DNA of 64,000 nucleotides from Flavobacteriales bacterium (GTDB lineage: Bacteria > Bacteroidota > Bacteroidia > CAIKAF01): positions 1 to 64,000 of the forward strand of contig JAKRSD010000025.1 of assembly GCA_022402535.1 (NCBI GenBank), given 5' to 3'. The position numbers and the translations under genes were made by a program. The notes under the pieces were generated by a model. It searched no databases and was not told the DNA's origin. It saw only the letters and a list, made by a program, of their open reading frames with translations. Numbering within the stretch: position 1 is the first letter of the stretch; every line of letters starts with the position of its first letter. This document shows positions 1-15,079 of the stretch, in pieces.

Positions 1-45
1 AATAGACCTAAACTCTTCGAACGGTTTTATCCAAAAAATAGGGGT

Positions 46-831
46 CTAAGACAAATACACCATTGGTATTTTGTTTTCTAAATGTTCTATTCTGTATTTT
101 TTGTGTTCAAATTCTACTGTCTTGTTAAAACAATTATAAGGTGAATAGTCAAACTCGTCTAATGATTTTACTTCAAGCCCATTGTTAATCAAACTATTCA
201 ACACTTCGCTGATGCCGTGATTCCAAGATACATCAGATACTGTCAAATCAGCTGTTTTGTCAGCATAAGTTCCGCTATTCGTTTCTACAATAGCTCCTGA
301 ATTAAAATATCTATAGCCGATTTTATCAAAGTTGTAGTCAAACATCCAAACAACAGGATGAAATTCTACAAACACAAAATGTCCGTTTGGTTTTAAAAAC
401 TTGGCAATAATTTTTGCCCACTTGTCCAAGTCAGGTAACCAACCAATTGTTCCGTAACTTGTAAACACAATGTCAAATTTTTCATCCAAGTGATTGGGCA
501 AGTTGTAAATATCGCAACAAATGAACTTTGCGTTTGAGTTGGTGTCCTTTGCTATTTGTTTCGCACATTCAATAGCTTTATCTGATAAATCAATACCTGT
601 AACGTTAGCGCCAAGTCTGCCCAACGAAATAGTATCTTGTCCAAAATGACACTGTAAATGCAAAATAGTTTTTCCTTTAATATCCCCAAGCAAGTTTAAT
701 TCAATATCATTTAGTGAACTTTTGCCTTTTAGAAAATTGTCAAGGTCGTAAAATTCAGATTTTAAATGTGTCTCGGTTCTTTTATTCCAAGACTGTCGGT
801 TTATTTCTATATAATTTGGTTCTGAGTTCAT
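46..831 (-). CDS. Class I SAM-dependent methyltransferase
   Basis: Complete 261-aa protein with a Rossmann-type methyltransferase fold. Motif I is the variant ILHLQCHFGQD (about residues 56-66), where most relatives have a DLGCGxG loop. It is followed by the acidic end of strand 2 (GIDLSD) and a motif resembling post-I/IV (CDIYNLP, FDIVFTS). The substrate cannot be read from sequence; the family acts on small molecules or proteins. It is the last minus-strand gene before the window edge and is separated from the TIR-dynamin gene by about 500 bp with a terminator, so it is probably not part of that operon. AT-rich like the rest of the island. Confidence 0.8.
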   Translation of the reverse strand: MNSEPNYIEINRQSWNKRTETHLKSEFYDLDNFLKGKSSLNDIELNLLGDIKGKTILHLQCHFGQDTISLGRLGANVTGIDLSDKAIECAKQIAKDTNSNAKFICCDIYNLPNHLDEKFDIVFTSYGTIGWLPDLDKWAKIIAKFLKPNGHFVFVEFHPVVWMFDYNFDKIGYRYFNSGAIVETNSGTYADKTADLTVSDVSWNHGISEVLNSLINNGLEVKSLDEFDYSPYNCFNKTVEFEHKKYRIEHLENKIPMVYLS

Positions 832-1333
832 TTTTTCTACGGTCGTTTTTTTTAAATAACAGGTAATGTTTTTCGGCTTTGCGTCCGATTGCTATCGGAC
901 CGGGCGGAATTTTTAGCACTACACCCGATACGATAAACCCCACTTCAATAATACACAAAATTCTAAAAAGAAGTAGTTAACCCGCTCTTAAACCTTTGCC
1001 GAACGTGTATTTGCGCCGTTTTTTCTAAAAAGTTAGCTCATTTTTTCATTTTGGGAGGGTTGTGCAACAGCTACCGATGTTAGCAGATGCCCTTCTTCTT
1101 TGTCCGAAGTCGTTACTGTCAGATGTAAGCACAAACCTGTCAAAAAAGTGATTTACATTAGAAGCACTCATTGTCAAGCTATGTTGTGAACCTGTGCGGT
1201 GGCGAAATAATTTTATTAAAAAAGGGTCGAAAAAAATTCTACTTGGGTGGATGAAAAAAAATACTCTCTTGCAAGCTTTGATTACAGCGTTGCCTTGAGC
1301 GGCTTGCAAGAGTGTATTTTTTTTAAGCGTTGG
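832..1333. other. 500-bp non-coding stretch
   Basis: No convincing gene. The right part holds a strong hairpin terminator (see 1254-1324). A short inverted repeat lies near 885-902 (GTCCGATT/ATCGGAC). An open frame of 87 codons at 1046-1309 (minus) overlaps the terminator hairpin and has low-complexity, phenylalanine-rich, non-homologous content, so I do not call it a gene. The word TAATAAAATTATTT near 1207-1220 recurs in opposite orientation near 7380, hinting at shared intergenic material in this island. Confidence 0.5.
1254..1324 (-). terminator. Long-stem terminator after TIR-dynamin gene
   Basis: Two arms of about 21 nt (AAAAAATACTCTCTTGCAAGC and the complement of its near-copy at 1302-1322, one mismatch) flank a 25-nt loop. 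The A/T runs on both sides make it potentially bidirectional. It begins 10 nt downstream of the stop codon of the 1334-4006 gene and should end that operon. Confidence 0.8.
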
Positions 1334-4006
1334 CTATTTTAATTCTGAAATGATTGCCGTAACGTTTTCATTTGTCTTTCTCAATCGACATATCTGTTCT
1401 TCAATTTCTTCTTTGCTTCCAGTTGAAAGTTTTACCTTCTTCTCTTGAATAGTTGCTAAGTATGCACCGACATAATTATTGAAGCTATTTCTTGCATTTC
1501 TGATTTGTGACTTGATATTATTTTCAAGAAGTCGGTTCGTGAAATCTTTTGCATTTTGGTATCGCTCCTGTATAATCTTTCTCCAAAAAATTTCTAAAGA
1601 TGCTTTACTAATCTTATTTTCGGCAAACATTTCATCTTCATAAAATGTAATCGTTCTATAGCCACCAAGGAAGCAGTTTGCCCGTTTGCTATAAACCTGT
1701 CCTTGTTTTTTCACCTTTACTATCTTGAAATCCGTCTTTACAAATCTGTCAATCAAAGCGTCTGCTTCCATTAAAGTTCTGTCAAAGTCGGGTTCTTCAA
1801 ATCGCACTCCATAAGAATCAAATTCAATGTGAAGCCCTTTCTTTAAAGTGCTTTCAAAATCTTTAGCTAATGAATCTATTGTTTGCTTTAAATTGGTGAA
1901 AAGTAACGTTTGTTTCTGTGCTAATTTTCCTTCAAGTTGTTTTCTGAATTCATTGAATGAGTTTAAAAGTTCTTGATTTATTTCAATATTCAGATTGCGA
2001 ATTGAGTTTTCAATTTGAAATTTCGGAGTGTGCTTCAACTGTTCTTCAACCTGTGTAAGTGCCTTATGAATTCGCTTTACCCAGTTTGGAGTTATTCTTC
2101 CCAAAAGCGATTGCTTATCTTCTTCCTTTTCATAATTAAAAGCCGATTCAATTTGGTCAATGATTGTGTTTTCAAAGGTTCTAAATTCTTTTTCAATCCA
2201 ATCCCTCATCTCTGTTTCAAACTTTTCGGCTTCGTCTTGGATGTTTTGTTGTTTTTTTTTTGCCTCCTCAATCTTGGCTTCCAAATCTTCAATCTCTTCA
2301 ATTGTTCTGCTCAAAACCCCTTCGGCTGTTACAACAAACTGATTTTTGAACTCCTGCAACAACCGTTTAAGATTATCCTGTAAACTCTCAATGAAAATTC
2401 TACTTCTGTTTTCAAATATGTAATTGATTATCTTGTTTTCAACTTCCATAATTTGACTTGAAATAAGAATTTCATTTGCTAATTCTTTATACTCAGCATC
2501 ATCTTTTTGATTTGCCCTGAAACCAAAAGCAATTTTCCCAAAATCTTTTTTCGCTTCTGAAGTTGCGTTGTCAGTTAAGATTAACCTTGAAAGCAATGCC
2601 CGACTTGCAGAAATTGTAAAAAAATGTTGTTTTAAAATTTTTGGAACTTTCTGCTTTACAAGATTGAAAACATAATCAACAACTTCATCAGGCGGCAAAC
2701 TGTTTCTATCTTCTTCATCAATTTTATTGATAACGAAAAACAAGCGGTCAGAAATTTTTTCAAGCATATCAGGTCGCAAATCAGCCAGCTTTTCTAAAAC
2801 TTCGTTCTCGTCTTTTGTTTTGAGTTTAGTGTAATCAAGCAAATAAATGATTGAACTGATTTTATTAATGAGTTCTGAATTTGACTGGTCAAAAGTTTTT
2901 CCGATTGTAATTTCAGTTGCGGCTTCGGCAAATCCAGGCGTATCAAGTATTTCAAACTTGATGTCAGTCATTTCTTTTTCTTCCAACACTTTGAAGGAAG
3001 CATTCAAAGTAAATTCAACTTCCTGTTTATATCCTTTATCCCTCCTTTCCTTATTTGTCGTTTCTATATGCTTCCTAATTTTGTTAGCACCTGCAATTTT
3101 ACTTTTACCAAAAGTAAGTTCGCCTTTTCCATTTTCGCTGTGATTTATTTTTACAGGAACAGATGTTTCTGCAACATTTGACATTGGTAAAAACTCATTG
3201 CCTAAGAGTGAATTGAGAAAAGTTGACTTACCTGATTTGAGAATTGCCATTACAGCAATTTGAAAAGTTTGGTCTTTGCATTGTTGTTGGAAGTGCTTTA
3301 CTCGTTCTAATATTTCCTCTGCTTTTACTTTTTCTTCTTTTATCTCTCTTGAAATTATCTCAACTGCTTTTTCAAAGTGCTTTTTGGTTTTTGAAATTTG
3401 GTTACTGAAATCTCTCTCCAACTTAGTATCTGGTCTTGGAGTATTTCCATACAAAGCGTTGATTAAATCTTTGAAGTTGGTTTCTTCATGGATTTCGGGC
3501 TTTAGAGTGTTCATGTTGCTCAACAAGTGAATGAAGTCAGCAATGATTTCTCTAAATTTGGTGTAATGGCTTATCTCCTCATGTAGTGGTTTTAAGTGAG
3601 CTTGTGATTTTGATTTTTTAAGTTCACGATTCAAAAGGGCTGCTTCATTCTCCCAATGCTTTGTATATTTTAAAATTCCTTTTGCATTATAGATGTCAGC
3701 ATCAAGCATCACGACTGGAAAAATTCTGTCATAAACATTTCCTTTCTCTACAATCTTCAACACCTCAAACATACAGTGTTTTGACTTTAGAAACTTATCA
3801 CTTACTACAAGAACAATTTTGTTTCCGTTTCCTAATCGCTTTTCAAATTCCTTAATGTTCCCTTTGTATTTGAGGTCTTTCTTATCAAGAACAACAGTGA
3901 AATCTTTCTTCAACTTTTTAGCAATAGAATCAACAATGTCTGTATGACTCTTTTTGCCATTAGTTGAAGTTATCCAAGCGTATGATATAAATACTTCTTC
4001 TTTCAT
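1334..4006 (-). CDS. TIR domain-dynamin-like GTPase fusion
   Basis: 890 aa. Residues 4-110 form a TIR domain: FISYAW start, SDKFLKSKHCMFEV block with the probable catalytic Glu at 81, as in NAD-cleaving bacterial TIRs. After a linker comes a dynamin-type GTPase: P-loop AILKSGKST (254-262, Ala in place of the usual first Gly), switch Thr in TSVP (about 281), G3 DTPG (355-358), G4 NKID (427-430), then SAS. Residues 530-890 are long charged helices/coiled coil with no clear transmembrane paddle. Start ATG lies 13 nt after the methyltransferase stop, with no room for a promoter, so it is cotranscribed with the XRE-methyltransferase pair. Inference: GTPase senses or remodels membrane/phage structures, TIR is the NADase effector. 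Domain calls are firm; the defence role is inferred from context. Confidence 0.85.
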   Translation of the reverse strand: MKEEVFISYAWITSTNGKKSHTDIVDSIAKKLKKDFTVVLDKKDLKYKGNIKEFEKRLGNGNKIVLVVSDKFLKSKHCMFEVLKIVEKGNVYDRIFPVVMLDADIYNAKGILKYTKHWENEAALLNRELKKSKSQAHLKPLHEEISHYTKFREIIADFIHLLSNMNTLKPEIHEETNFKDLINALYGNTPRPDTKLERDFSNQISKTKKHFEKAVEIISREIKEEKVKAEEILERVKHFQQQCKDQTFQIAVMAILKSGKSTFLNSLLGNEFLPMSNVAETSVPVKINHSENGKGELTFGKSKIAGANKIRKHIETTNKERRDKGYKQEVEFTLNASFKVLEEKEMTDIKFEILDTPGFAEAATEITIGKTFDQSNSELINKISSIIYLLDYTKLKTKDENEVLEKLADLRPDMLEKISDRLFFVINKIDEEDRNSLPPDEVVDYVFNLVKQKVPKILKQHFFTISASRALLSRLILTDNATSEAKKDFGKIAFGFRANQKDDAEYKELANEILISSQIMEVENKIINYIFENRSRIFIESLQDNLKRLLQEFKNQFVVTAEGVLSRTIEEIEDLEAKIEEAKKKQQNIQDEAEKFETEMRDWIEKEFRTFENTIIDQIESAFNYEKEEDKQSLLGRITPNWVKRIHKALTQVEEQLKHTPKFQIENSIRNLNIEINQELLNSFNEFRKQLEGKLAQKQTLLFTNLKQTIDSLAKDFESTLKKGLHIEFDSYGVRFEEPDFDRTLMEADALIDRFVKTDFKIVKVKKQGQVYSKRANCFLGGYRTITFYEDEMFAENKISKASLEIFWRKIIQERYQNAKDFTNRLLENNIKSQIRNARNSFNNYVGAYLATIQEKKVKLSTGSKEEIEEQICRLRKTNENVTAIISELK

Positions 4007-4019
4007 TTGTTCGTTAATG

Positions 4020-5630
4020 CTACTTCCCTCTATTCAATCTTCTGTATGAAAGTTTTTTCCAAATACTGTGAGCCAACTTTATTTCTTTTTGTGTCAAACC
4101 GTAATGCTCTTTCAAAATTACTTGATTGGTGATTTTTAATACTTCCTCAATGTCGGTTTTATTGCGAATGAGTTTGTCAATTTGCGGAAGTAAAGCAGCG
4201 TTGTCTTTGTGATAGGGGAGTAAAACTCTTTCTGCCTCATTTGGCATAAGTTCTAAAACACCGCCTCCGTGACTTCTGCCTGAAACTTCTGTGAATGCCA
4301 ATGAAAGCGAATTGTAGTAGCTTGCTGTAAATGCTTTTAGGTTTGTTGTTGGTTTTAAAAAAACACGGTGCATTGTGTCCGTTGTGTATGCTCCTGCTTG
4401 GTTAATTATCAATCTCGGATAAAGGTTGTTTCTGCGAATAAACAAAGCATCAGAAATTTTCAGTGATGGAACAACAAACCAATCATCACGGATGCCTGTC
4501 TTGTAACCTTTGTGAATTCCTAAGCTTTCACCGTGTGCAATATATTTCACTGCTCCGTTTTTTCTGTTCAAGTTTTTGCTGTCAGGAAAAACAAGCAAGT
4601 GTGCTTTTGCTTTTGAGTGTTTGTTTTTCTCCCAATCTTTCTCTGTAAAAATTACGCTGTTCACCTGAACACTTCTCCCAACCATTGGCTTTGCGTAATC
4701 TTGTAAGTCGTATTCCTCTACGGTTGTAAGTGGAACTGTAAAAAAGTCATTTGAACCTGTTGTAATTCCAACTTCTACATTTGCAAACTTTCCAAGTGTT
4801 GGAATATTTCTGTCTTTGGCAATATTTTCTAAAAAGTCAATTTCCTCTTGCTCTAAAAAATAGAAAGTCCATTTACTACTCTTAAAATCAATCTTCTTTT
4901 TCGGACTTTTCAATCGTGCTACATCAAGTGTTTGCAATTCACTTGCATCACGTAATTCAATATGCTCAATGTTGTGAGTTTTCGTTTCGTTCCTCTCGCA
5001 AAGAAGTAAAACAACTTCTTGCTGAATGTCGGGAAAAACAAGTTTCTCAAAAGAAATGATGTTGATTTTGTTGTAGAAGTGAGCAAGGAAATTTCTCAAC
5101 TGCTGTGCAAATGAAACCTGCAAAATTTCAGCAGGTAGCACAAAACCAATTCTGCCTCCTTTGTCTTTGAGTAGAAGCGATGAACCAACTACAAAAGAAA
5201 CCCAAGCGTTTGTGAGTTTTGAATACGTTAAACCTGCTTTGATGAAAATGTCTCCCGCTTCTACCTGCTGCATCCTGTCAAAGAACTGGTAACGGATATA
5301 GGGCGGATTACCTACAACTAAATCAAACCGCTTGTGAGTGTTGTTGCAATAAGTGTGAAAGTCAGCATTGATAATTTCTTTGTTCTTCAAATTGATTTGC
5401 TCTGCTTTCTCCGCTTCCGTTTCGTCTAACTCAACTGCTGTAATTGTGTTGTATTTGAATTTGTGTTTTGCAAGTTGTTCCAAAAAAACTCCATCACCGC
5501 AACTCGGTTCAAGAATATCAAAGTCGCTGCTGCCATTGATGCCCCAACGCAAAACAAATTCTGCGATTGGTTCGGGCGTGTAAAAACCACCTCTTAATTT
5601 TTCGGCTGATGCTTCTGTAATTAATTTCAT
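4020..5630 (-). CDS. Type II N6-adenine DNA methyltransferase (Mod)
   Basis: 536 aa. An N-terminal FYTP motif (16-19), SAM-binding motif I EPSCGDG (41-47) and catalytic NPPY (108-111) occur in the order of gamma-class adenine methyltransferases such as TaqI/Eco57I types. The large C-terminal half (about 250-536) should carry target recognition. Its ATG overlaps the stop of the XRE regulator gene (ATGA, 4 nt), implying translational coupling, and the TIR-dynamin gene follows by 13 nt. With the PLD nuclease upstream it most likely forms a restriction-modification pair. The recognition sequence cannot be inferred. Confidence 0.88.
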   Translation of the reverse strand: MKLITEASAEKLRGGFYTPEPIAEFVLRWGINGSSDFDILEPSCGDGVFLEQLAKHKFKYNTITAVELDETEAEKAEQINLKNKEIINADFHTYCNNTHKRFDLVVGNPPYIRYQFFDRMQQVEAGDIFIKAGLTYSKLTNAWVSFVVGSSLLLKDKGGRIGFVLPAEILQVSFAQQLRNFLAHFYNKINIISFEKLVFPDIQQEVVLLLCERNETKTHNIEHIELRDASELQTLDVARLKSPKKKIDFKSSKWTFYFLEQEEIDFLENIAKDRNIPTLGKFANVEVGITTGSNDFFTVPLTTVEEYDLQDYAKPMVGRSVQVNSVIFTEKDWEKNKHSKAKAHLLVFPDSKNLNRKNGAVKYIAHGESLGIHKGYKTGIRDDWFVVPSLKISDALFIRRNNLYPRLIINQAGAYTTDTMHRVFLKPTTNLKAFTASYYNSLSLAFTEVSGRSHGGGVLELMPNEAERVLLPYHKDNAALLPQIDKLIRNKTDIEEVLKITNQVILKEHYGLTQKEIKLAHSIWKKLSYRRLNRGK

Positions 5631-5947
5631 TGGTCTGATTTTTTCGTTTTCAAATACTTCACTTTTTTTTCTGCCACTTTCAACACTTCGCTTGATAAAT
5701 CTTCTTCGTCCATAATTTGATAAGCAACTGAATCACTCAAAAAAGCAATCAACAAATCTTTGTCGCTTACTTTAAAGAACTTTGCAAACTTCTCTATCAG
5801 TTGCTTAGTCGGCTTACGATTATTCTTTTCTATTTTTCCAAGCATTGAAGTATCAATGCTCAATGCTTCTGCAACTTCACGTAAAGGAAGATTTTGCTCC
5901 TCACGAAGTTTCTTTACCGTTTCACCGAATGTTTTCTCAATTTTCAT
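5627..5947 (-). CDS. XRE-family HTH regulator (C-protein-like)
   Basis: 106 aa with a Cro/C1-type helix-turn-helix at about residues 8-62 (LREEQNLPLREVAEALSID then SMLGKIEKNNRKP). A short acidic/basic tail follows, with no second domain. Size, position immediately before a type II methyltransferase, and an inverted-repeat operator touching its start codon resemble the controller (C) proteins of restriction-modification systems. It overlaps the methyltransferase start by 4 nt. It likely autoregulates the XRE-methyltransferase-TIR-dynamin transcript; whether it also controls the PLD nuclease upstream is not visible. Confidence 0.85.
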   Translation of the reverse strand: MKIEKTFGETVKKLREEQNLPLREVAEALSIDTSMLGKIEKNNRKPTKQLIEKFAKFFKVSDKDLLIAFLSDSVAYQIMDEEDLSSEVLKVAEKKVKYLKTKKSDQ

Positions 5948-5995
5948 TTTGGACTACTTCAGTCCAAAGGTAGGCACTTAAACTTTACCGACAAA
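5948..5995 (-). promoter_or_regulatory. Promoter with overlapping palindromic operator
   Basis: Reading the minus strand: TTTG (5995-5992), exactly 19 nt, then TACCTTTG (5972-5965), a perfect match to the Bacteroidota minus-33/minus-7 consensus. A palindrome TTTGGACT-N5-AGTCCAAA (5948-5968) overlaps the minus-7 box and abuts the ATG of the XRE gene at 5947, so bound regulator would block the promoter. The transcript would be leaderless or nearly so. Confidence 0.8.
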
Positions 5996-6040
5996 TCTTT
6001 TTTTGAAAAGAGTTTTCAACAAATTTTGGGTGAAAGGTTT

Positions 6041-7228
6041 CTAACTGATTTCAAGAGTAAACTCTCCTTTTTTTTTGGTTTTGAAAAGTTTGGCAGTTTT
6101 GCCAATGAGTTCGTCTTTGGCTATTACCTTTTTTGCATCACCCCAACTCACCTGTGTCATAGAATTTTTCTGTTCGTAAGAACGGGTATTTGTAAGTGGA
6201 TTGTGAGTTAGTATAAGTTTAAAACTGCCAGACGGCTTGCCGTCAATAACAAAATTGAAAATTGCTTCTGCTCTTTCAAGATGCGATGTGTCAGGGTTTT
6301 TATCTTTTGTCCATTTCAGTGATGAAAAAACTGTATCACGGAAATAATGGCGTTGGTCAATGTCTTTCATTTTGCCTTTAGTGAAATACATTGAGCCAGT
6401 CGGATTAGTGTTTGCCCCTTTTGGAATGTTCAGTGGTCTTTCGGTTAGCTTACCACTTTCCCAAAGCAACTCGCCTTTAGCAGAAGCACTTCTAGAAGGA
6501 ACAGCAGCGGTAGCTGCTGTTGGTTTGGTTGTTGGTTTTCTTGTGCCTCTAAACTCGGTTGGAATTTTTGCGATGGCTCTTTTCGGGAAAATTTTTGAAA
6601 TGATGTTTTCTGTTTCTGTTCTCTCGGCTTTCTCTGCCTTGTCTTGTGCTGCCTTGCGTTCTGCTTCTGTCGGAACTACTTTGGCTTTTACCAAGTCGGC
6701 AATTAACTTTTTGTTGAGTTTTTTAAGGTTGGGGTCTGAATGGTCAAAAATGCCTTTGAAGTATTCTTTTAACTGTTCAACTATTTTTCTGTCTGAAACA
6801 GAACTATTGTTTATGGAAACATGTAATGATGCTTCCACATTGATGAAAAGTCCTTGTGAAGTAAGATTTGATGAACCAATAATGAGTTCACATTTGTCAT
6901 TGCCTTCAAACAAGTAAATTTTAGGGTGAAAAATTGTGATGCTCGGTTGATAAAAAACAAAAGCATTGATGTTTAATGCCAAAAGTTCCTCAAGTGCTTC
7001 TTTGGAAGTTCCTTTTTGGTCAACACCTGTTACAATGGTAATTATGTTGAGATGTTTCTTGGCTGTCTTGATTTGTTTTGAAAGTCCTCTGATACCTGCT
7101 TGACTTACAAATGCAGAAATACCTGTAAATGTGTGAAAGTTTTTGTCGGCAAAGAATTTAATAAGTTGGTTACCAACCGAATTAACTGATTTTTCTTCAA
7201 ATCCCTGTCCTAATAAATTTATATTCAT
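6041..7228 (-). CDS. PLD-family (NgoFVII/BfiI-like) restriction nuclease
   Basis: 395 aa. The N-terminal ~190 residues carry one phospholipase-D catalytic motif: HPK (101-103), then GSSN (118-121) and a downstream Glu (132). This is the layout of metal-independent PLD endonucleases such as BfiI and the NgoFVII family, which work as dimers with one motif per chain. A charged linker rich in K/E and A/P (about 190-255) leads to a C-terminal ~140-residue domain (DQRHYFRDTVFSSLKW...) that may recognise DNA. It sits 93 nt upstream of the XRE gene on the same strand, so the natural reading is the restriction half of this R-M system. An alternative is a free PLD nuclease or helicase-associated effector. 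Confidence 0.75.
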   Translation of the reverse strand: MNINLLGQGFEEKSVNSVGNQLIKFFADKNFHTFTGISAFVSQAGIRGLSKQIKTAKKHLNIITIVTGVDQKGTSKEALEELLALNINAFVFYQPSITIFHPKIYLFEGNDKCELIIGSSNLTSQGLFINVEASLHVSINNSSVSDRKIVEQLKEYFKGIFDHSDPNLKKLNKKLIADLVKAKVVPTEAERKAAQDKAEKAERTETENIISKIFPKRAIAKIPTEFRGTRKPTTKPTAATAAVPSRSASAKGELLWESGKLTERPLNIPKGANTNPTGSMYFTKGKMKDIDQRHYFRDTVFSSLKWTKDKNPDTSHLERAEAIFNFVIDGKPSGSFKLILTHNPLTNTRSYEQKNSMTQVSWGDAKKVIAKDELIGKTAKLFKTKKKGEFTLEIS

Positions 7229-7251
7229 ATCGTTTTAACGTTCCTTTTTCA

Positions 7252-7259
7252 CAAATCTA
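7252..7259 (-). promoter_or_regulatory. Minus-7 box for PLD nuclease gene
   Basis: Minus strand reads TAGATTTG, fitting TAnnTTTG, about 24 nt upstream of the ATG at 7228. No good minus-33 TTTG is visible at the expected spacing. It suggests that the nuclease has its own promoter, separate from the XRE-controlled one. Confidence 0.45.
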
Positions 7260-7706
7260 TGAATAATGCTCAGCCGATTGCACTCTTTTGACTGCCAATT
7301 GCGTTTGGCTCGTGGGAGGCTTGGTAGGCAAATGTGTGCAATGTGCGTTGGCAAAGAATTTTTGCAGGTGGGCTTTTTTAATAAAATTATTTCTTGGGTT
7401 GCTTTAGAAGCAGTGTCGGTTGTTGTCTGAAAAGGTGTCACCAAAGTATTAGAAATGAGTGTCTGTCTGTGTTTACAACCGCTGCAATAGGGTTTCTGCT
7501 AACCGTTCAAGGCTTACCGCAGGGCTGGTATTTTATAACTGTCCGCCCGGCAACTGAAGCTGATTGAAAAACTGATGATCAAGTTAACAACTAAAAGCCA
7601 AATAGAATTCGGTCAAGCCCGATATTAGCGGATAGTAGCACAACTGATGATTGTTATTCCGTCTGCCAGCCTTGCGGCAAACCTTTTGTTGCCTGCATGT
7701 GCTTCG
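7260..7706. other. Non-coding spacer between nuclease and 349-aa gene
   Basis: About 450 bp with no supported gene. It contains GCGTTGGC-type words and T-rich segments that recur in the other spacers of this island (near 1324, 9055, 11,720, 11,755), and the AT word shared with 1207-1220. A 69-codon open frame on the minus strand has no protein-like features. Confidence 0.4.
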
Positions 7707-8756
7707 TCATGCTGAATTTGTTTCTTCGTTTCTCCGCAATCTGACTTTTTCAAGCATTTCGTCAATATGCTTTGGGTATTTGCCTTCAAAATATTCAAAC
7801 ACAAGTGGATTGCCAGTCAAAAAATGACTGCTAAATTCAATCCATATGTCAATACCAACTTGACCGTTCATCTTATAAAGTTTTTCTGATAATGTCTTTA
7901 TGTGATTTGAGCTTTTGTTGTTGTAATTGAAATCTGAATCTCGTCTGCTATAATATTCAGTCTCTGTATAAAAATGAATTGCTCCGTCAAAATGCCTGAA
8001 CTCCTTTTTCTCTAAATCATATTCTGCATGAATATATCTTACAGGGTAATACTCTTTTCCATACTTTGAAAGTTTTATTTCTTCCGTTTTGAATTCTTCT
8101 GCTTGAAAACTTTTTATTCTATCTTTTGTCGCCCATTTAATGTCTAAAGCATAAGCATCTCGAAAGAAAAATGAATTTAGAGAACTACCAATATCCATCG
8201 GTGGTCTTAGTTTAACAGTTCCGTCTGTTATCGATTCAATATTTCTGTCAAACTTTGCCCCATACCATGTGTCAAATTCCATGTATGAAGAATCGTCTAC
8301 GTTAATTCTTACTCGGTCAGTATCAAGGGATATGTAAGTGTCAATATTGGGATTGTCATAGTTCCAAAATAGTTCGACAAATCTGGGGGCATAGTTATTT
8401 ACTCCATGAAACCCACGCCTAAAATAAGGATGAGCCATGAGCATAAAATTTTCGGCGTATAAGTAACCATTTAGAAAACGTTTTCTCTCAAAAGACTGTT
8501 GCAAATTTTTGAAGTCCAGCAAACCTTCTTTGTCGGGAACAAGGCTTGGATGTAAGTAGCTAATAATATTTGGGTAGGTCGCTACAATTCCGATTGTCTG
8601 AAAGTATTTAAAGTTTTCATCTGTCAACTTAACGTCTTTGTCAGCCATGAATTTCTTGAAAGCAGTAATTGTGTCGGCATTTTTTGCCAACTCCTCTTGT
8701 TCTTTCTCTTTCAACATTCTAAGATAGTTTTCTTGAAATTCAGTAATATCGTCCAT
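7707..8756 (-). CDS. Hypothetical protein, 349 aa
   Basis: Not recognised. A soluble-looking protein without signal peptide or membrane segment. The N-terminus is helical and charged (FQENYLRMLKEKEQEELAKN). The middle is rich in aromatic and acidic residues with beta-like character (YISLDTDRVRINVDD, MEFDTWYG), and the C-terminus is a basic helix. It stands alone between two long spacers, in the same orientation as the R-M operon but 480 bp upstream of it, and its left-hand neighbour is direct repeat R1. Probably another island cargo gene; no function is proposed. Confidence 0.65.
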   Translation of the reverse strand: MDDITEFQENYLRMLKEKEQEELAKNADTITAFKKFMADKDVKLTDENFKYFQTIGIVATYPNIISYLHPSLVPDKEGLLDFKNLQQSFERKRFLNGYLYAENFMLMAHPYFRRGFHGVNNYAPRFVELFWNYDNPNIDTYISLDTDRVRINVDDSSYMEFDTWYGAKFDRNIESITDGTVKLRPPMDIGSSLNSFFFRDAYALDIKWATKDRIKSFQAEEFKTEEIKLSKYGKEYYPVRYIHAEYDLEKKEFRHFDGAIHFYTETEYYSRRDSDFNYNNKSSNHIKTLSEKLYKMNGQVGIDIWIEFSSHFLTGNPLVFEYFEGKYPKHIDEMLEKVRLRRNEETNSA

Positions 8757-8810
8757 GAAGTATTTTTTGAAACGTGAAGTCGTTTAGCATTGCAGGCAAC
8801 TTACTTATTT

Positions 8811-9032
8811 GCACTATAAAACTTCGCTTATCCGTCTAAATTTAGGCGGACATGCGCAACTCCGTCGCGTTTATTTTGGGTATTGTCATCGGGTATTATT
8901 TTCATACGTTACGTTTTCCAAATATATTCTTTTTCTGCTTTTTCAACACATTCCTTCTCCATAAAATATCGGCACAAAAAAAAGCCGCCGGAATGCTCCG
9001 ACGGCTTTACTGAATTTAAGATGTGTTTGTTA
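8811..9032. repeat. Direct repeat R1 (left copy, ~222 bp)
   Basis: Matches 11,837-12,058 (R2) in the same orientation at roughly 90% identity by eye, with single-base indels. Shared landmarks are GCTATAAAACTTCGCTTATCCG, the word GCAACTCCGTCGCGTTTATT, a Phe-codon-like AT tract and a GC-rich terminator hairpin. The match ends at a TTA that aligns with the stop codon of the T9SS-protein gene in R2. The two copies bracket the 9,068-11,698 gene module. Confidence 0.9.
8976..9008 (-). terminator. Terminator inside R1
   Basis: Hairpin AAAGCCGCCGGA-ATGC-TCCGACGGCTTT with one stem mismatch (C-A), followed on the minus strand by eight T. It lies 60 nt downstream of the SLOG/DprA-like gene and would end that transcript. 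It is a slightly decayed copy of the perfect hairpin in R2. Confidence 0.8.
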
Positions 9033-9067
9033 GAGGATTTGGCAATGTGCTTGCAAATAGCGTTGGC

Positions 9068-9538
9068 TCATACGATTTTGTTTATTGGCTTTTTAATTCC
9101 CTTAAGTAGTTCTTCCAACTGTCCGCCTGGGCTTGCATAACCAATGGTAATTTGGTCTGCAAGGGTTGTCATTAATTGGTTGCGTGTCTGTGCGCTTTGA
9201 CTTCTTACTCGTTTTATCGATTTGTCAAACGGTGTGATGATTAACAGTCTGCCTTGTTCAATTGGTTTTTCAAATTCAGGTTCTAATTTTTCTTTTAGTC
9301 CTCTTGCTAAAGCTAAAATGATGGGCTGTTTGCCTTTGAGCAGATAATGCAATACATCTTTTTCTATTTGGCTGTGAAAACCACTGATAACGCAATTGCC
9401 TTTCTCCCTTTGCTCTATTGCCCAGTCATAGCATTTCAATACCACCGAAGCAGGAACTTGTCGGCTGCATAGAAATGCTGTTTTATGTAGTGTCAGCAGT
9501 TCTTTGTTTCCTATTTGTTCTTTTATCTCTAGTAGCAT
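9068..9538 (-). CDS. SLOG/DprA-like Rossmann-fold protein
   Basis: 156 aa from the ATG at 9538. It matches the small DprA-type (SLOG superfamily) proteins found in mobile cassettes: KTAFLCSRQVP, then a Rossmann core with ISGFHSQIEKDVLHYLL and IILALARGL, then LLIITPFD. SLOG domains bind nucleotides or process nucleotide signals, and DprA binds ssDNA; this short form lacks DprA's accessory domains. The ATG is preferred because the truncated paralogue at 11,172 starts at the equivalent place. An in-frame TTG at 9580 would add 14 residues. It follows the deaminase-HATPase gene on the same strand and may share its transcript. Confidence 0.7.
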   Translation of the reverse strand: MLLEIKEQIGNKELLTLHKTAFLCSRQVPASVVLKCYDWAIEQREKGNCVISGFHSQIEKDVLHYLLKGKQPIILALARGLKEKLEPEFEKPIEQGRLLIITPFDKSIKRVRSQSAQTRNQLMTTLADQITIGYASPGGQLEELLKGIKKPINKIV

Positions 9539-9563
9539 CTTTTTCTTTATGATTAATTGGTAC

Positions 9564-9661
9564 TTGGACACTATGTCCAACTTCTTGTCCAGGTTCAGCT
9601 ATGATAGCTGCTTTAACACCTGCAACTCGGACACAATGTCCAAGTTATTGTCCAAGTTCAT
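9564..9661 (-). repeat. Duplicated 38-nt segment with paired palindromes and 20-aa mini-ORF
   Basis: Two in-frame copies of a segment encoding NLDxxLDIVS lie between the deaminase gene and the SLOG gene. The upstream copy is an ATG-initiated 20-codon ORF (9661-9599) ended by TAG. The downstream copy continues in the same frame into the SLOG gene through a TTG codon. Each contains a palindrome: TTGGACA-CTA-TGTCCAA (9564-9580) and GGACA-CAA-TGTCC (9629-9641). Differences are partly synonymous, so the segment may once have been the SLOG N-terminus. A regulatory leader or operator pair is equally possible. Confidence 0.6.
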
Positions 9662-9665
9662 TAAC

Positions 9666-11165
9666 TCATTTATTTACAGTATATTTATAATTAGGAGAAT
9701 TGGCATCTTCTCCATTATCACGTATTAAACCAAGTTCTTTCATGGCAGCTAGATGTCTTTGAGCAGTTTTATATCCTATATTAAAATGAGCAGAATACTC
9801 TCTTGTACTTGCTTCATCAACACTTTTTAGCCATTCATAACCTTTAAGTTGCGCATCATTCAGTTTTGCAACATTTGGATGAATACTTACTTTCTTAACA
9901 GCTTCCATTGTTTTAGGGAAAGTTAGCGTTAGCAAAGGTTCTTCATAGATATACTCAGGTAATGGCAAGCCGTATTTTTCATTCAAAGATTTTAGAGAGG
10001 CCATTCCCAAGCCTGTTTCTTCTACATATCCCATTTTGTTGAAAACAAGGGATATTATAGGATTTCTACTGTAAGAAGGAGCTTTGAAGGTATTCAATTG
10101 TTCTAAAGTAATAGTTGAAGGTGGGGCTCCAGGACTTTTAATTACAATGGCATCATCATCAATATTAATAGTATTTTTTGAGCCTTCAATGGAGTAATCT
10201 CTGTGGACAATTGCATTAATGACAGCTTCACGAAGAACACTTAATGGAAAAGCTTCCTTTTCTGATCTTTTAAATGATGATGTGTCTTTTTCCTGTGCCA
10301 ATACTTTTTTCATCCAATCCTGAGCCAAATCAGGTAATAAAACCAATGCTTGGTCAAAACTCTCCGGTTTGAATTCATAATTACCCAATTTTGCGGTACA
10401 CTTCAAAGCAGCTCCTTTAAACGCTAAGCGTGGCTCTATACCAAATAGCAATATGCCATAGCCATTTGGTTTGTATGTATTGGTCGTTTTATCTAAGCTC
10501 AACACGCCCATATCAATCAAATATTCCTTGAATTCGGGTTGCTCAATCTTGTAGGGTAATTTTGCTTCGTTGATAAACTTCTGAAGTGCCTCAGCAGATA
10601 ATTTTTCAAAGGAAGTATTGGCAATAGGCTGCTCAATAGGTGTGGTATAATCTTCTGTTTCGGCTTTATGCTTTCTTTCCAATGCCTGTTCTAAAAATGC
10701 TTTGTTTTCAGTTTCTATCTGCTTTTGCAGGTCACGGTCAAACATTTTTACCTCCACAAAGTGCCTTTTCAAATGCTCTATTCCTTTGGTAGAAACGGTT
10801 GGGTCTGGGTCAATAATTCCAACATAAACTGTTTTTATTCTGGCATTAGTTGTTCTCCGGCAACAAGGCACTTTGGGCGGATTTCTTTCCACACAAGGTT
10901 CTAGCGTAGTAAACAAAATACACCCGTCTAATTTTTCATGCCCCAATTTTCGTTCCAATAAACTAAACTCTGCGTGGTCACCTTCTCTTAGTTCACCACG
11001 ATGTGCCTGTACCACTTTTCCATCAGGAAAAACCAAAACCGCACCTACTTTGGGTGGTACTTTACCATCAGCCCTCGGCTCATTTTTGCTTTTATTCATT
11101 TCAGCAATGGCCAATTCCATATAAGGGCGTGGGTTAAATATTTTATCTTCTTTCTTCTTTGCCAT
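9666..11165 (-). CDS. Cytidine/RibD-like deaminase-HATPase-wHTH fusion
   Basis: 499 aa in three parts. Residues 12-150 form a zinc deaminase: HAE (64-66) and PC...CC (90-91, 101-102), closest in look to RibD/dCMP-deaminase types. Residues 185-425 resemble the RecG-like C-terminal ATP-binding module (HATPase_c_4): N-box REAVINAIVHRDY (312-324) and G-motif ETGLGM (383-388). Residues 435-499 form a winged helix (TREYSAHFNIGYKTAQRHL). The AlbA_2 domain that often precedes this HATPase seems to be replaced by the deaminase. The module sits between a SLOG fragment and an intact SLOG gene. A nucleotide-depleting or nucleotide-sensing defence role is inference. Confidence 0.8.
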   Translation of the reverse strand: MAKKKEDKIFNPRPYMELAIAEMNKSKNEPRADGKVPPKVGAVLVFPDGKVVQAHRGELREGDHAEFSLLERKLGHEKLDGCILFTTLEPCVERNPPKVPCCRRTTNARIKTVYVGIIDPDPTVSTKGIEHLKRHFVEVKMFDRDLQKQIETENKAFLEQALERKHKAETEDYTTPIEQPIANTSFEKLSAEALQKFINEAKLPYKIEQPEFKEYLIDMGVLSLDKTTNTYKPNGYGILLFGIEPRLAFKGAALKCTAKLGNYEFKPESFDQALVLLPDLAQDWMKKVLAQEKDTSSFKRSEKEAFPLSVLREAVINAIVHRDYSIEGSKNTINIDDDAIVIKSPGAPPSTITLEQLNTFKAPSYSRNPIISLVFNKMGYVEETGLGMASLKSLNEKYGLPLPEYIYEEPLLTLTFPKTMEAVKKVSIHPNVAKLNDAQLKGYEWLKSVDEASTREYSAHFNIGYKTAQRHLAAMKELGLIRDNGEDANSPNYKYTVNK

Positions 11166-11171
11166 ATTTTA

Positions 11172-11267
11172 TCAAAATTTTAAAATAGCAGGAACTTGTC
11201 GGCTGCATAAAAAAGCGGTTTTAGGTAGCTTTAAAATATCGGTATTGCCAAGGCTTTCTTTTATCAT
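11172..11267 (-). pseudogene. Truncated 5' copy of SLOG/DprA-like gene
   Basis: 31 codons starting at an ATG that overlaps the GIY-YIG stop (TAATG) and encoding MIKESLGNTD...KTAFLCSRQVPAILKF before TGA. The stretch KTAFLCSRQVPA is identical to residues 19-30 of the intact gene at 9068-9538, and the DNA there (GCAGGAACTTGTCGGCTGCAT) is almost unchanged. The rest of the gene is missing: the deaminase-HATPase gene starts 6 nt after this stop. It reads as a remnant left by insertion or recombination at a paralogous SLOG gene. Confidence 0.85.
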
Positions 11268-11698
11268 TAGTGTTCTTCTGCTATACCGTATTTAGGGAAA
11301 AATTTAGCTGTAAAATATCCTTCAATAGCTCCTCTTACTCTTGTGTCATCTTGAAAAACCCATCTTACCTGACAAAACTCTCTGATATACTCTTTAGCTT
11401 TTTTTACATCACCAAAACAGGAATGATTTTCATCGTGAATGATATATTTTTTTAGCCTTGCATTTGATGTTGAACCCATTAAGTGATTTGTGTAAAGCCT
11501 TTGTCTTAGGTTTTTTGTCCTGCCAACATAGAGAGCACTTTCAGTATGCCCATATGTTTCAGTTATTAAATACACGCCAGCATTTATTGGTAAAACGGAA
11601 GGAGTTATTAAACTGAATTGCATCGGTTTCATTTGCAATAGTTCCTTGAGTGATGAATTTAGAAAATCTGACCAGTCTTTTGAATTATAATTTTCCAT
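11267..11698 (-). CDS. GIY-YIG nuclease domain protein
   Basis: 143 aa with a single GIY-YIG catalytic domain: GVY (41-43), YVG followed by Arg (57-60), the conserved Arg in NLRQRL, and the catalytic Glu in IEGYF (about 126). No DNA-binding domain beyond this, as in small stand-alone or mobile-element GIY-YIG proteins. It is the first gene of the repeat-flanked module and is translationally coupled (TAATG) to the SLOG fragment, so GIY-YIG and SLOG were probably once an operon. It could be a repair, restriction or mobility nuclease. Confidence 0.8.
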   Translation of the reverse strand: MENYNSKDWSDFLNSSLKELLQMKPMQFSLITPSVLPINAGVYLITETYGHTESALYVGRTKNLRQRLYTNHLMGSTSNARLKKYIIHDENHSCFGDVKKAKEYIREFCQVRWVFQDDTRVRGAIEGYFTAKFFPKYGIAEEH

Positions 11699-11836
11699 TT
11701 CGATTATTTTTATTCTTAGTGCGTTGGCAAAAAATGGCTCTTTTGGTTTTGCGAAGCGTTGGCACTTTGTCTTTTATTTTCTGTTCGTTTATTTTTGGTC
11801 GTGTCGTTTTTAGGGTGATTGCTAACATATTTATAT
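11699..11836. other. Spacer between GIY-YIG gene and R2
   Basis: 138 bp, T-rich, no gene. It carries two GCGTTGGCA words 35 bp apart (near 11,722 and 11,757) like those in other spacers of the island. No promoter with both boxes was found for the GIY-YIG gene. Confidence 0.35.
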
Positions 11837-12058
11837 GCGCTATAAAACTTCGCTTATCCGGCTAAATGGGGCGGATATGCGCAACTCCGTCGCGTTTATT
11901 TTGGGTATTGTCATCGGGTATTATTTTCATACGTTACCTTTTCCAAATATATTCTTTTTCTGCTTTTTTCAACGCATTCCTTCTCCATAAAATCTTGGCA
12001 CAAAAAAAGCCGCCGGAATGCTCCGGCGGCTTTACTGAGTATAAGATGCGTGTGTTTA
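11837..12058. repeat. Direct repeat R2 (right copy, ~222 bp)
   Basis: Same orientation as R1 (8811-9032). R2 contains the stop codon and natural terminator of the T9SS-protein gene, so it looks like the native copy. The hairpin here is perfect while R1's has a mismatch. The distance between copies is 3,026 bp; recombination between them would delete the GIY-YIG/SLOG/deaminase module cleanly. Confidence 0.9.
12002..12033 (-). terminator. Terminator of T9SS cargo gene (in R2)
   Basis: Perfect 12-bp stem AAAGCCGCCGGA-ATGC-TCCGGCGGCTTT followed by seven T on the minus strand, 23 nt downstream of the stop codon at 12,056. Confidence 0.92.
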
Positions 12059-15000
12059 TCGGTTGATAAGCAGCTTGCGCGAAGAAACCTTGTCGTTCTC
12101 GCTTACCCGCAGGGTATAAATGCCCGGCGAAAGCGAAACGGGAACCACATGCAGGGTGTTGCCGTACAGGGTGTTTTTAATGACCACCTGTCCGTTCATG
12201 CTGATGATTTCCATCACCGGATGGCTGAACACCGACTGCTCCAGGTTAATGTACAGGTTGCCTTCGGCCCAGAAACCGTTGAACCCGTTGAGGTCGGTTT
12301 CGTTCACGCCAAAAGTGCTGTACACGGCAAATACTTTGGTATCGGTAATCAGGGTGTCGTTCCACTGGTTTACCACCTGCGCCACCACCTGATAGTTGTT
12401 GGCATTGGGGAACGACCAGGTAAACGTGGCACCCGTCTGCACGGGATTAAAGGGGAAATAATCGCCGATGGTGGCGGTTCTGAATTTCCACTCGTACGAA
12501 ACGTTCGGATGCGAACTCGAAGCCGTTACGGGGCTCGTGGTGGTATTTTGTGCCAGCGTCTGCGTATCGGTAGAGCTGATGTAGGCGTAGTATTTGATGA
12601 TTTCGATATCGCTTCCGTTGTCGGTGCCTATGGCGGCCGGCGAAGAGGAAACTACGCGTATACGGTATCCGGTTCCGTCGAATATAATATTCGGAATGGT
12701 AGCCGTAATCGTGGCAGGTGCAGTCGCTGCCAATGTGCCGATGGCCGTAGGCGTGGCAAAACTTCCGTTGGCATCGGATAATTGGGCTGTGAACACGTTG
12801 CCCGCATCAAACATGATATCGCTGGTAAAGTTTACGGGCGTGGTTACGTTTGCCGAAGGCGATACATAAAATATAGATGCGGCAATGGCCGAGGTGGTTA
12901 AGGTATTTCCGTTTTCGGCGGTCAGCATCACTTCGTTGCTGAGGACTTCATCGCCCCATTGGTTTACGGAAGCACATACCACATAATAGGTTCCCGGTTG
13001 CGCAACCGAGGGAGTGTAGGTGGCGTTGTTCTGCGCCGGCGAAATGGCCGTGTAAGGTCCGCCCGCCGTGGTGCTGATTCTCCATTCGCGCGATACGCTG
13101 TTTTGGCTTTCGCTCACGGTTAAATCGCTGCCTGTGGAAGAATACACAAAAGTTTGGTTTCCGGCAGGTGATACGCTGTTGTTGTACTGATCAACCACGA
13201 GGTCTGTTCCGTTATCGGACCCGAAAATGGCGGGAGCCGAAGAAATCACACGAATCAGATAGCCGTTTCCGGCCGGGGTGGTATTCGGAATTACGGCGGA
13301 AATGGTTCCGCTGTTTTGGGATGACAAGGTACCGATATTGGTGGCATTGGCAAATGAACCGTTGGCATCGGAAAGCTGTGCGGTAAACACATTCCCGGCA
13401 TTCAGCGAACCACTTACCGTGAAGGGTACATCCACATTTGCATTGGGCGAAGAAGGGCTGAACTCAAACGGAGAACCGGTTATGGTTCCGGTGCTGATAT
13501 TGGCATTTCCTACGGAAATAACCACTTCGTTGCTGGTGGCCTGCACCCCGCTTATGGTACTTGTACAAACTACATAATATGTACCCGCTGTGTTAAATAC
13601 AGGCAGATAAGATGTTCCGGTTTCCACTGGGGCAAAGGCTGAATAGGGCCCGCCCGGCGTGGTGGAGAAAAACCATTCTCTGGCCGTTCCCGTAGGGGTT
13701 TCGGTTACGTTCAGGGTGGTTCCGGCCACACTTACTAAGAGACTTTGGGTTCCGGCAGGGGCAATCTGGTTTTTCACCACGTTAATCACCACTTCGTTGC
13801 TGACAGCAGTTAAGCCGCCGCCAAAGCTCGATTCGCACATTACATAATAGGTTCCGGCATTGGCAAAGTTGGGCACGTAGGAGAATCCGGTTTGAGAAGG
13901 ATTAAGGTTCGCATACGGTCCGCCCGATGTGGTGGCAAATTTCCAAACTCTGGAAACGGCAGCGGGATTTTCAGTTACCGAAAGGGTAGAACCGTTGGTA
14001 TTGGCGGCAATCGTTTGAGCTGCCGAGGGAGCCACACTGTTTGTAACCAGATTGATGGTAATATTATCCAGATTGGCCGTGGCGCTCACGTTAGGCGTGG
14101 TGGCCACTACACGGATGCGATAGCCGGTTCCCGAAGGGGTTCCTGCGGGAATGGTGGCATTGATGGTACCTGCATTGTTGGATGAAAGAGTACCGATATT
14201 CACCGGATTGGCAAATGAACCGCTCGCGTCGGAAAGTTGGGCGGTGAATACATTGCTGAATTCAAAAATACCGGTTTTGGTAAACGGAATCGAAATGGCG
14301 GCTCCCTGCGAAGACGAAACATTATAAGTAAGCGGATTCAGCGTAGAAACGGTAGTGGTGCGCGGCACATAAATCAATTCCATGTCGTCGATAAATACTT
14401 CATCGCCTGCCGATCCACCACCCGCAACACTGTTGGAGGTGAACGTAATCAGGATATAATCGGGCGAAGTGGCGGGGCCATTATAGGTAAAAGGCACCGA
14501 TTTACGCTCCCAGTTTCCGTTGGTACGCGGATAATTCAAAATGGCGGTTGCCACCACATGCAGAGGCGCATTGGCATCGGAAGTGGAAGGGTCGCGGTAA
14601 TCGTAATCATCATGAATGGTGGCGCTCATCCGTGCATTTTGGTTTACGTTGGCATTGTTGTAACGCACCCAAAACACAATACTGTCCGGCCAGGCATTTA
14701 ATGCCTCCGAAAATCCGGTGCTGCTCCGTTGTGTATAGTTGTAATTTTGGGGAGAAGAGGCGGTTGTACTCCCCGCATTCACCCGTCCGCAGGTCATGTT
14801 TCCATTGGCCACAATTCCGATTACGCTGCTGGAATATACCCGGGCGCTGTATGTACCCGTAGAACCCGGACGGATTTGGGTAGACCGTTGAATGGATTTG
14901 GGTGCCAATCCGCCGTTACCGCCGGTGCTGGTTTTAATTCCGTTCCAGTTAATGGGCTCTTCGGTATTGGTGCCTACGTTTTCCCATTGTTCAAAATTGC

Positions 15001-15079
15001 TGTTCCCTACTTGGGTCTGGGCTTTCAGTCCCCATACTGAAGCACCCATAAAAAGGGCAAGTAAAAGTTTTTTTCTCAT
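12056..15079 (-). CDS. Secreted repeat protein with T9SS C-terminal sorting domain
   Basis: 1007 aa. Signal peptide (KKLLLALFMGASVWGLKAQ), then an N-terminal beta-rich region of PCMD type (FEQW, GDEVFIDDMELIY at its end, about 22-235). Two repeat classes alternate across 240-920: Ig-like units ending GTYYVVC...SNEVxI, and units with FTAQLSDANGSFANxxxIGTL...GYxIRVxSS. The last ~70 residues form a type A sorting domain (VMEIISMNGQ, LSPGIYTLRV, KLLINR), recognised by the type IX system for outer-membrane export and attachment. It likely has an adhesive or glycan-related role at the cell surface. Strong own promoter and terminator; monocistronic. Confidence 0.88.
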   Translation of the reverse strand: MRKKLLLALFMGASVWGLKAQTQVGNSNFEQWENVGTNTEEPINWNGIKTSTGGNGGLAPKSIQRSTQIRPGSTGTYSARVYSSSVIGIVANGNMTCGRVNAGSTTASSPQNYNYTQRSSTGFSEALNAWPDSIVFWVRYNNANVNQNARMSATIHDDYDYRDPSTSDANAPLHVVATAILNYPRTNGNWERKSVPFTYNGPATSPDYILITFTSNSVAGGGSAGDEVFIDDMELIYVPRTTTVSTLNPLTYNVSSSQGAAISIPFTKTGIFEFSNVFTAQLSDASGSFANPVNIGTLSSNNAGTINATIPAGTPSGTGYRIRVVATTPNVSATANLDNITINLVTNSVAPSAAQTIAANTNGSTLSVTENPAAVSRVWKFATTSGGPYANLNPSQTGFSYVPNFANAGTYYVMCESSFGGGLTAVSNEVVINVVKNQIAPAGTQSLLVSVAGTTLNVTETPTGTAREWFFSTTPGGPYSAFAPVETGTSYLPVFNTAGTYYVVCTSTISGVQATSNEVVISVGNANISTGTITGSPFEFSPSSPNANVDVPFTVSGSLNAGNVFTAQLSDANGSFANATNIGTLSSQNSGTISAVIPNTTPAGNGYLIRVISSAPAIFGSDNGTDLVVDQYNNSVSPAGNQTFVYSSTGSDLTVSESQNSVSREWRISTTAGGPYTAISPAQNNATYTPSVAQPGTYYVVCASVNQWGDEVLSNEVMLTAENGNTLTTSAIAASIFYVSPSANVTTPVNFTSDIMFDAGNVFTAQLSDANGSFATPTAIGTLAATAPATITATIPNIIFDGTGYRIRVVSSSPAAIGTDNGSDIEIIKYYAYISSTDTQTLAQNTTTSPVTASSSHPNVSYEWKFRTATIGDYFPFNPVQTGATFTWSFPNANNYQVVAQVVNQWNDTLITDTKVFAVYSTFGVNETDLNGFNGFWAEGNLYINLEQSVFSHPVMEIISMNGQVVIKNTLYGNTLHVVPVSLSPGIYTLRVSENDKVSSRKLLINR

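Follow-up and report, generated by a model that had tools for sequence, protein, structure and literature searches.

The closest described systems to the locus presented here are the integrons, of which the attC sites have an R''-L''...L'-R' layout (PMC12901181). The additional domain of the integron integrase IntI is treated as a defining and necessary feature (PMC9668308, and Messier & Roy 2001 as cited in PMC2426708). The Bacteroidota are described as having almost no integrons: surveys reported at first only integrases without cassettes, and then a single complete integron, in Salinibacter (PMC9024848), by a search for which the additional domain is a requirement (PMC9668308). Class 1 and class 2 integrons also contain delta-attI-type cassettes, where attI stands in place of attC, an arrangement proposed to originate from a crossover between the attI L box and R'' (PMC12901181, citing Partridge 2000). 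For a cassette flanked by equal attI1 sites on both sides, the same study measured >97% excision under IntI1 (PMC12901181). Our search of the open-access literature (subscription journals and preprints lay outside it) found no description of arrays like the one below in Bacteroidota, nor did it turn up an account of att sites or cassettes belonging to the tyrosine recombinase family named NF040815. The integron likeness of the enzyme has already been noted, by way of its NCBI family name.

Contig C18, one of the 32 contigs of a 3.41 Mb genome, begins with the window, i.e. the whole stretch of 64,000 nucleotides that was analysed. A gapped alignment matched positions 8798–9032 (R1) with 11824–12058 (R2) in the same orientation, with 91% identity across the shared 234 bp, 98% across the central 99 bp, and a local score of 198 against a maximum of 20 in 50 shuffles, which bears out the two direct repeats of about 90% identity described in the sequence-only reading of this DNA. 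The homology reaches the GTT cores at 8800 and 11826, beyond the left ends given in that reading. It had also placed one end of both repeats at the stop codon and terminator of the T9SS gene; this holds for R2, which starts at the stop codon of that gene (12056–15079, minus strand), but not for R1, which starts at a CTAAC box approximately 35 bp 3' of the SLOG stop codon. Both repeats have the same layout of a terminator, a putative Bacteroidetes-type promoter and an inverted-repeat site with a GTT core at its end; the core of R1 is GTTG, and the core of R2 is preceded by T, the usual base being A. The promoter box of R2 is one which we take, by its consensus, to be of the Bacteroidetes −33/−7 type. 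To judge from the divergence of approximately 9%, the duplication is not recent. The features of the array, all on the minus strand, are as follows:

11823–12058, minus: R2, an attI-like platform copy behind the T9SS gene (GTTA core at 11826–11823; 88% identical to the C32 site)
12006–12033, minus: terminator hairpin of the T9SS gene, within R2 (hairpin AAAGCCGCCGGAGCATTCCGGCGGCTTT, then a T-run)
11944–11973, minus: putative Pc-like promoter within R2, from its sequence (TTG ... TATATTTG)
8801–11825, minus: cassette 1, core to core, approximately 3.03 kb (GIY-YIG, SLOG' remnant, deaminase-ATPase, SLOG, R1)
11267–11698, minus: GIY-YIG domain protein, 143 aa (Pfam PF01541)
11187–11271, minus: second SLOG gene, truncated N-terminal part (repeat D3)
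9666–11165, minus: cytidine-deaminase-like and HATPase_c_4 (RecG-C-like) protein, 499 aa (Pfam PF00383, PF13749)
9068–9580, minus: SLOG/DprA-like protein, 170 aa (PF02481 below cut-off; PADLOC PsyrA 3.4e-11)
9029–9033, minus: CTAAC, probable remnant of R'', corresponding to its inner part, from the lost attC of the first cassette; the R1 homology begins here
8797–9033, minus: R1, a further platform copy, which closes the SLOG cassette on its 3' side and matches R2 at 89% identity over the site (terminator 8981–9008, promoter box 8919–8926, GTTG core 8800–8797)
7707–8756, minus: ORF349, the gene of cassette 2, matching no known family
7500–7699, minus: attC-like site ending cassette 2 (R'' at 7699–7688, second stem of 12 bp, R' core GTTAGC at 7503)
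1334–7228, minus: genes of cassette 3, from Pfam and PADLOC (PLD-nuclease-like 6041–7228; HTH 5627–5947; type II methyltransferase 4020–5630; TIR-dynamin 1334–4006)
1079–1089, minus: R'' of cassette 3, CATCTGCTAAC, complementary at 9/10 positions to the 5' end GTTAGCAGAA at 7503
46–831, minus: SAM-methyltransferase (Pfam), probably a fourth cassette, truncated by the end of the contig

Read from the T9SS gene, the order is thus R2, GIY-YIG, truncated SLOG, deaminase-ATPase, SLOG, CTAAC, R1, ORF349, the PLD-HTH-methyltransferase-TIR/dynamin genes and the SAM-methyltransferase, with the core letters reading GTTAGC at 11826 (R2) and GTTGCC at 8800 (R1). The cassette of ORF349 is complete, because the last ten bases of its R'' CATGCAGGCAAC pair 10/10 with its own 5' end GTTGCCTGCA, and are accompanied by the 12-bp second stem and the R' core GTTAGC. 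The third cassette is probably a defence cassette, its type II methyltransferase matching PADLOC MTase_II at 9.7e-202, and chain parsing in the window gave no clear R' past 1079, the third boundary. At the other end of the window, to the right of the conserved region, 43927–64000 and locus L062 have by eye the look of a Mu-like prophage, with tail-type genes and, in L062, a transposase-like ORF.

Cassette 1 is different in that the R'' partner of its 5' end GTTAGCAATCA was not found (best match 8/11), and it is a composite, because a SLOG' remnant lies inside the segment. This remnant belongs to a shorter direct repeat within the cassette (9449–9533 and 11187–11271), and the truncated SLOG start at 11187–11271 sits 3' of the GIY-YIG gene and is broken just 5' of the deaminase-ATPase gene. 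Between the deaminase-ATPase and SLOG genes, 9561–9665 contains palindromic direct and inverted repeats of TTGGACA type. The sequence-only reading was right in seeing a discrete cassette next to the terminator of a resident gene, with a copy of the duplicated segment on either side, and the excision which it envisaged is plausible, since this segment carries recombination sites. What does not hold is its simple insertion with target duplication, as the segment is a composite in which R1 appears to have taken the place of its own 3' attC, and further cassettes of the array follow on the left as far as the end of the contig. The GIY-YIG protein was present in 2/395 genomes, too rare to serve as a test of a moving cassette. 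Orthologues of the T9SS gene (49–54% identical, in four family members of other genera) lie in unrelated gene contexts; the relatives compared at this locus were other genera in both genome collections and none of the same genus, and neither an empty site nor an alternative layout of the locus was seen among them. The relatives belong to the Bacteroidota and include Flavobacteriales/Crocinitomicaceae MAGs, with T9SS protein segments at 48–51% identity.

Genome-wide searches separated the two halves of the repeat. The terminator half is found in R1 and R2 only, which excludes the dispersed, genome-wide terminator family that the sequence-only reading had named as a possible refutation. The other half, of approximately 80–100 bp, has four further copies, at C32:18343, C20:69863, C15:5643 and C2:3427. 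Scanning the genome with a short 9-mer gave no information. The C32 copy immediately follows an intact tyrosine recombinase of 366 aa (P0001, C32:17218–18315), and over the core-proximal site of approximately 80 bp this integrase-adjacent copy is 88% identical to R2 and 84% to R1, compared with 89% between R1 and R2. Hence the absence of an integrase, reported earlier, is correct for the DNA between the repeats but not for the genome: the array in the window has no integrase nearby, yet starts with an attI-like site and promoter, and the likely cognate enzyme, with a site of its own that is 84–88% identical, would work in trans from C32.

P0001 scored 235 bits against the NCBIfam model NF040815, 'site-specific tyrosine recombinase/integron integrase' (cut-off 220), and 201 bits, below the cut-off of 265, against the integron integrase model TIGR02249, which it matched in two pieces with profile positions 182–240 skipped. 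The IntI additional domain (I2) is absent, with an alignment gap in all displayed Bacteroidota integrases. In the tree, the Bacteroidota integrases and IntI were separated from Xer at 100/100, a tentative grouping in view of the few and long Xer and IntI branches. Homologues of P0001 at E <= 1e-60 were found in 56/119 relatives searched. The element of approximately 80 bp shared by R1, R2 and the C32 site is also found in two family relatives (G009 and G014), where it lies directly 3' of integrase genes or of their 3' remnants. Each of these two genomes has several copies of an integrase 3' end with an att site (L130, L132, L133 and L134 in G009; L045, L051 and L052 in G014). This suggests that platforms may multiply and then lose the integrase, as at least one of them, L133, shows an integrase fragment of 86 aa only. 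The Chryseobacterium oryzae plasmid NZ_CP094530.1 (L143) encodes an integrase of 49% identity, the stop codon of which is followed at 104 bp by a core, and the system is therefore not confined to chromosomes. On this plasmid a VOC-family gene directly follows the integrase, with an IS91-family transposase behind it.

We compared the landing sites across the 30 best of the P0001-homologue integrase loci. A TATAAnnnA motif with a GTTR core was found 3' of the integrase stop codon in 27/30, mostly at 84–102 bp, where the background expectation for the core motif was 0.015 per scanned window. Between stop codon and core there is, for the most part, an inverted repeat that varies in sequence, Bacteroidetes-type promoter boxes resembling TTG..TATATTTG were judged by eye to lie upstream of the sites, and past the core there are unrelated accessory genes. 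GTTR was present at 40/40 cores, having been a criterion in picking the sites, and GTTRRRY at 3/40. The nearer contig end was located 3' of the integrase in 27/30 loci (sign test 4e-6; median 1.5 kb vs 39 kb), within 300 bp in nine of the 30, and exactly at ...AGTTA in three contigs. Cell-to-cell differences in the cassettes at the core would be expected to produce such contig breaks, and repeats could cause them too.

The genome also contains a second landing-site family, at C4:208467, C14:2130, C20:4216 and C24:20815 (L123, L124, L125 and L126), the members of which are 80–91% identical among themselves and about half identical to the first family. Each is located 3' of a resident gene (ATPase, NrdD-like, TonB-receptor-like and depolymerase-like) with an accessory cassette next to it, and R'' boxes are present at 4/4; a cognate integrase of this second family was not identified. 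The core pattern was counted in 100 genomes; in this genome there were 7 sites vs 1 control, and as the counts are near background in many others, these whole-genome counts were kept out of the evidence.

Cassette anatomy was searched for with the first 11 nt after the core of 34 platforms as queries, swapped between platforms as a control. A downstream match of 10/11 positions to the reverse complement of the query was present in 20/34 platforms vs 2.9% of controls. This complementary box sits just behind the accessory gene or genes of the cassette itself, and the lone mismatch is a conserved A ten bases past the core in nearly all 20, which is reminiscent of the extrahelical bases of integron attC sites. 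The box is followed by a second stem, formed with the letters just 5' of another GTT, at which the next cassette starts, and this stem was of at least 8 in 15/20 vs 6/400 random positions. The choice of motifs was partly guided by the data, and these results are guarded by the swap control and the random-site control, without a held-out set. Chains could be parsed to eight cassettes in L103, four in L104 and three in L106, with attC lengths clustering at 126–131 and 173–176 bp. The predicted cassette 3' sites have the R''-L''...L'-R' design of integron attC sites, and, by their sequence, similar arrays are present in many Bacteroidota.

We consider it probable, at roughly four in five, that R1 and R2 are attI-like landing sites, and that positions 1–11826 form an integron-like cassette array served in trans by the C32 integrase. 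Comparative sequence, the source of all the evidence, shows the sites, the way in which they accompany the integrase family, and the anatomy of cassettes and attC. The C32 integrase is the likely cognate enzyme; its action on R1 and R2, the chemistry of the crossover, the activity of the promoters and excision are predicted from these features. Circular cassettes would recombine at the GTT core and so land 3' of the promoter of the landing site, and each would end in an attC-like site, the first box of which is complementary to the start of that same cassette. The first cassette would be the GIY-YIG/deaminase-ATPase/SLOG segment, with its own attC replaced by R1 from R'' (CTAAC) onward, and it may be excisable as a circle of approximately 3.03 kb, either through integrase action at the cores or through homologous recombination of R1 with R2; by analogy with the attI1-flanked cassette under IntI1, easy excision would be predicted. 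R1 itself may have arisen by a crossover between R'' and a platform, as proposed for the delta-attI-type cassettes, or by joining at a microhomology (TAACA/TAAACA) to another copy of the chromosome that had a platform directly before ORF349. Its origin is the least sure part of the scheme, and both routes would give the same structure. Counting against the array reading are the degraded boundary of cassette 1, the GTTG core of R1, the T before the R2 core and the divergence of approximately 9%, and the dispersal of integrase-less landing sites behind resident genes falls outside the explanation.

The same observations can be read in other ways. R1 starts exactly at the point where R2 meets the T9SS stop codon, the terminator half is common to both, cassette 1 has no attC of its own, and the duplication of the whole 222 bp goes beyond what a core-to-core integrase reaction would carry, all of which would suit a remnant of homologous recombination or tandem duplication, whereby the chromosomes of two strains were joined via a shared T9SS 3' region and the att-like content is incidental. 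We regard this as unlikely, since the boundaries lie at GTT cores, the repeats carry the site of the integrase locus, and ORF349 has a complete R''/R' attC; such an event may account for the origin of R1, but not for the nature of the array.

Less probable still is that a dispersed repeat, MITE-like or of terminator type, spread independently of an integrase and inserted at two places near the T9SS gene. Although 80–100 bp of the repeat do recur at four other loci and a second family of similar design at four more, no transposon-like ends were seen, every copy separates a resident gene from an accessory gene and has its core next to the latter, and neither the complementarity of cassette 5' and 3' ends nor the integrase association would be accounted for. 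Direct repeats flanking a segment with defence-like genes are also what a genomic island formed by an integrative element (IntCTnDOT-like or phage) would leave as attL and attR, yet there is no integrase between R1 and R2, there are many cassettes of 1–6 kb with an attC each, and the associated recombinases fit the XerA/IntI profiles (NF040815, 235 bits), which makes this the most remote of the explanations considered. Returning to the integron-like array, we favour, with moderate confidence, the wider view that the Bacteroidota contain a widespread, unrecognised lineage of integrons without the IntI additional domain, in which docks of attI and promoter have multiplied behind resident genes, integrase-less, and load defence and other cassettes, R1 and R2 being a dock in the course of duplication. 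Earlier surveys probably missed this system since standard tools demand the additional domain. Defence-type genes are among the cassettes seen here. If active, the system would be a major unlisted route of gene exchange in the Bacteroidota, and both the purpose of the additional domain and the evolution of attC recognition from Xer-like enzymes would become directly testable.

Finally, we compared the system with those already described. The XerA/Xer-type recombinases of NF040815 are alike in that the C32 integrase scores above the XerA cut-off (235 vs 220 bits), but this integrase has an att site and cassettes, exists alongside a separate XerC/D-like gene in the genome, and is set apart by its C-terminus SPFDDL (cf. 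SPLD in IntI). Similarly, R1 resembles the attI copy of delta-attI-type cassettes in standing in place of the attC of the SLOG cassette after R'': it is a copy of R2 starting at CTAAC, with 5 nt of R'' left and the expected box not found. It differs in that the copy includes the terminator of a resident gene and a promoter, and lies at an integrase-less locus in Bacteroidota. With integrons, both those of class 1–3 and the sedentary chromosomal ones of e.g. Vibrio, there is likeness in the landing site adjoining the integrase, the GTT core, the promoter-like motif before the cassettes, the anatomy of circular cassettes, the R''-L''..L'-R' palindromes, the arrays and the contig-breaking variability, whereas the integrase lacks the I2 domain, the site lies 3' of the integrase in the same direction, the cores are GTTR and seldom GTTRRRY (3/40), and this genome has many integrase-less landing sites behind resident genes. 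A GTT-core site by the integrase (27/30) and attC palindromes with an R'' complementary to the cassette 5' end are features of strict integrons that the system shares; from its sequence features it is predicted to work like an integron, yet it stands outside the strict definition on the I2 domain and on GTTRRRY.
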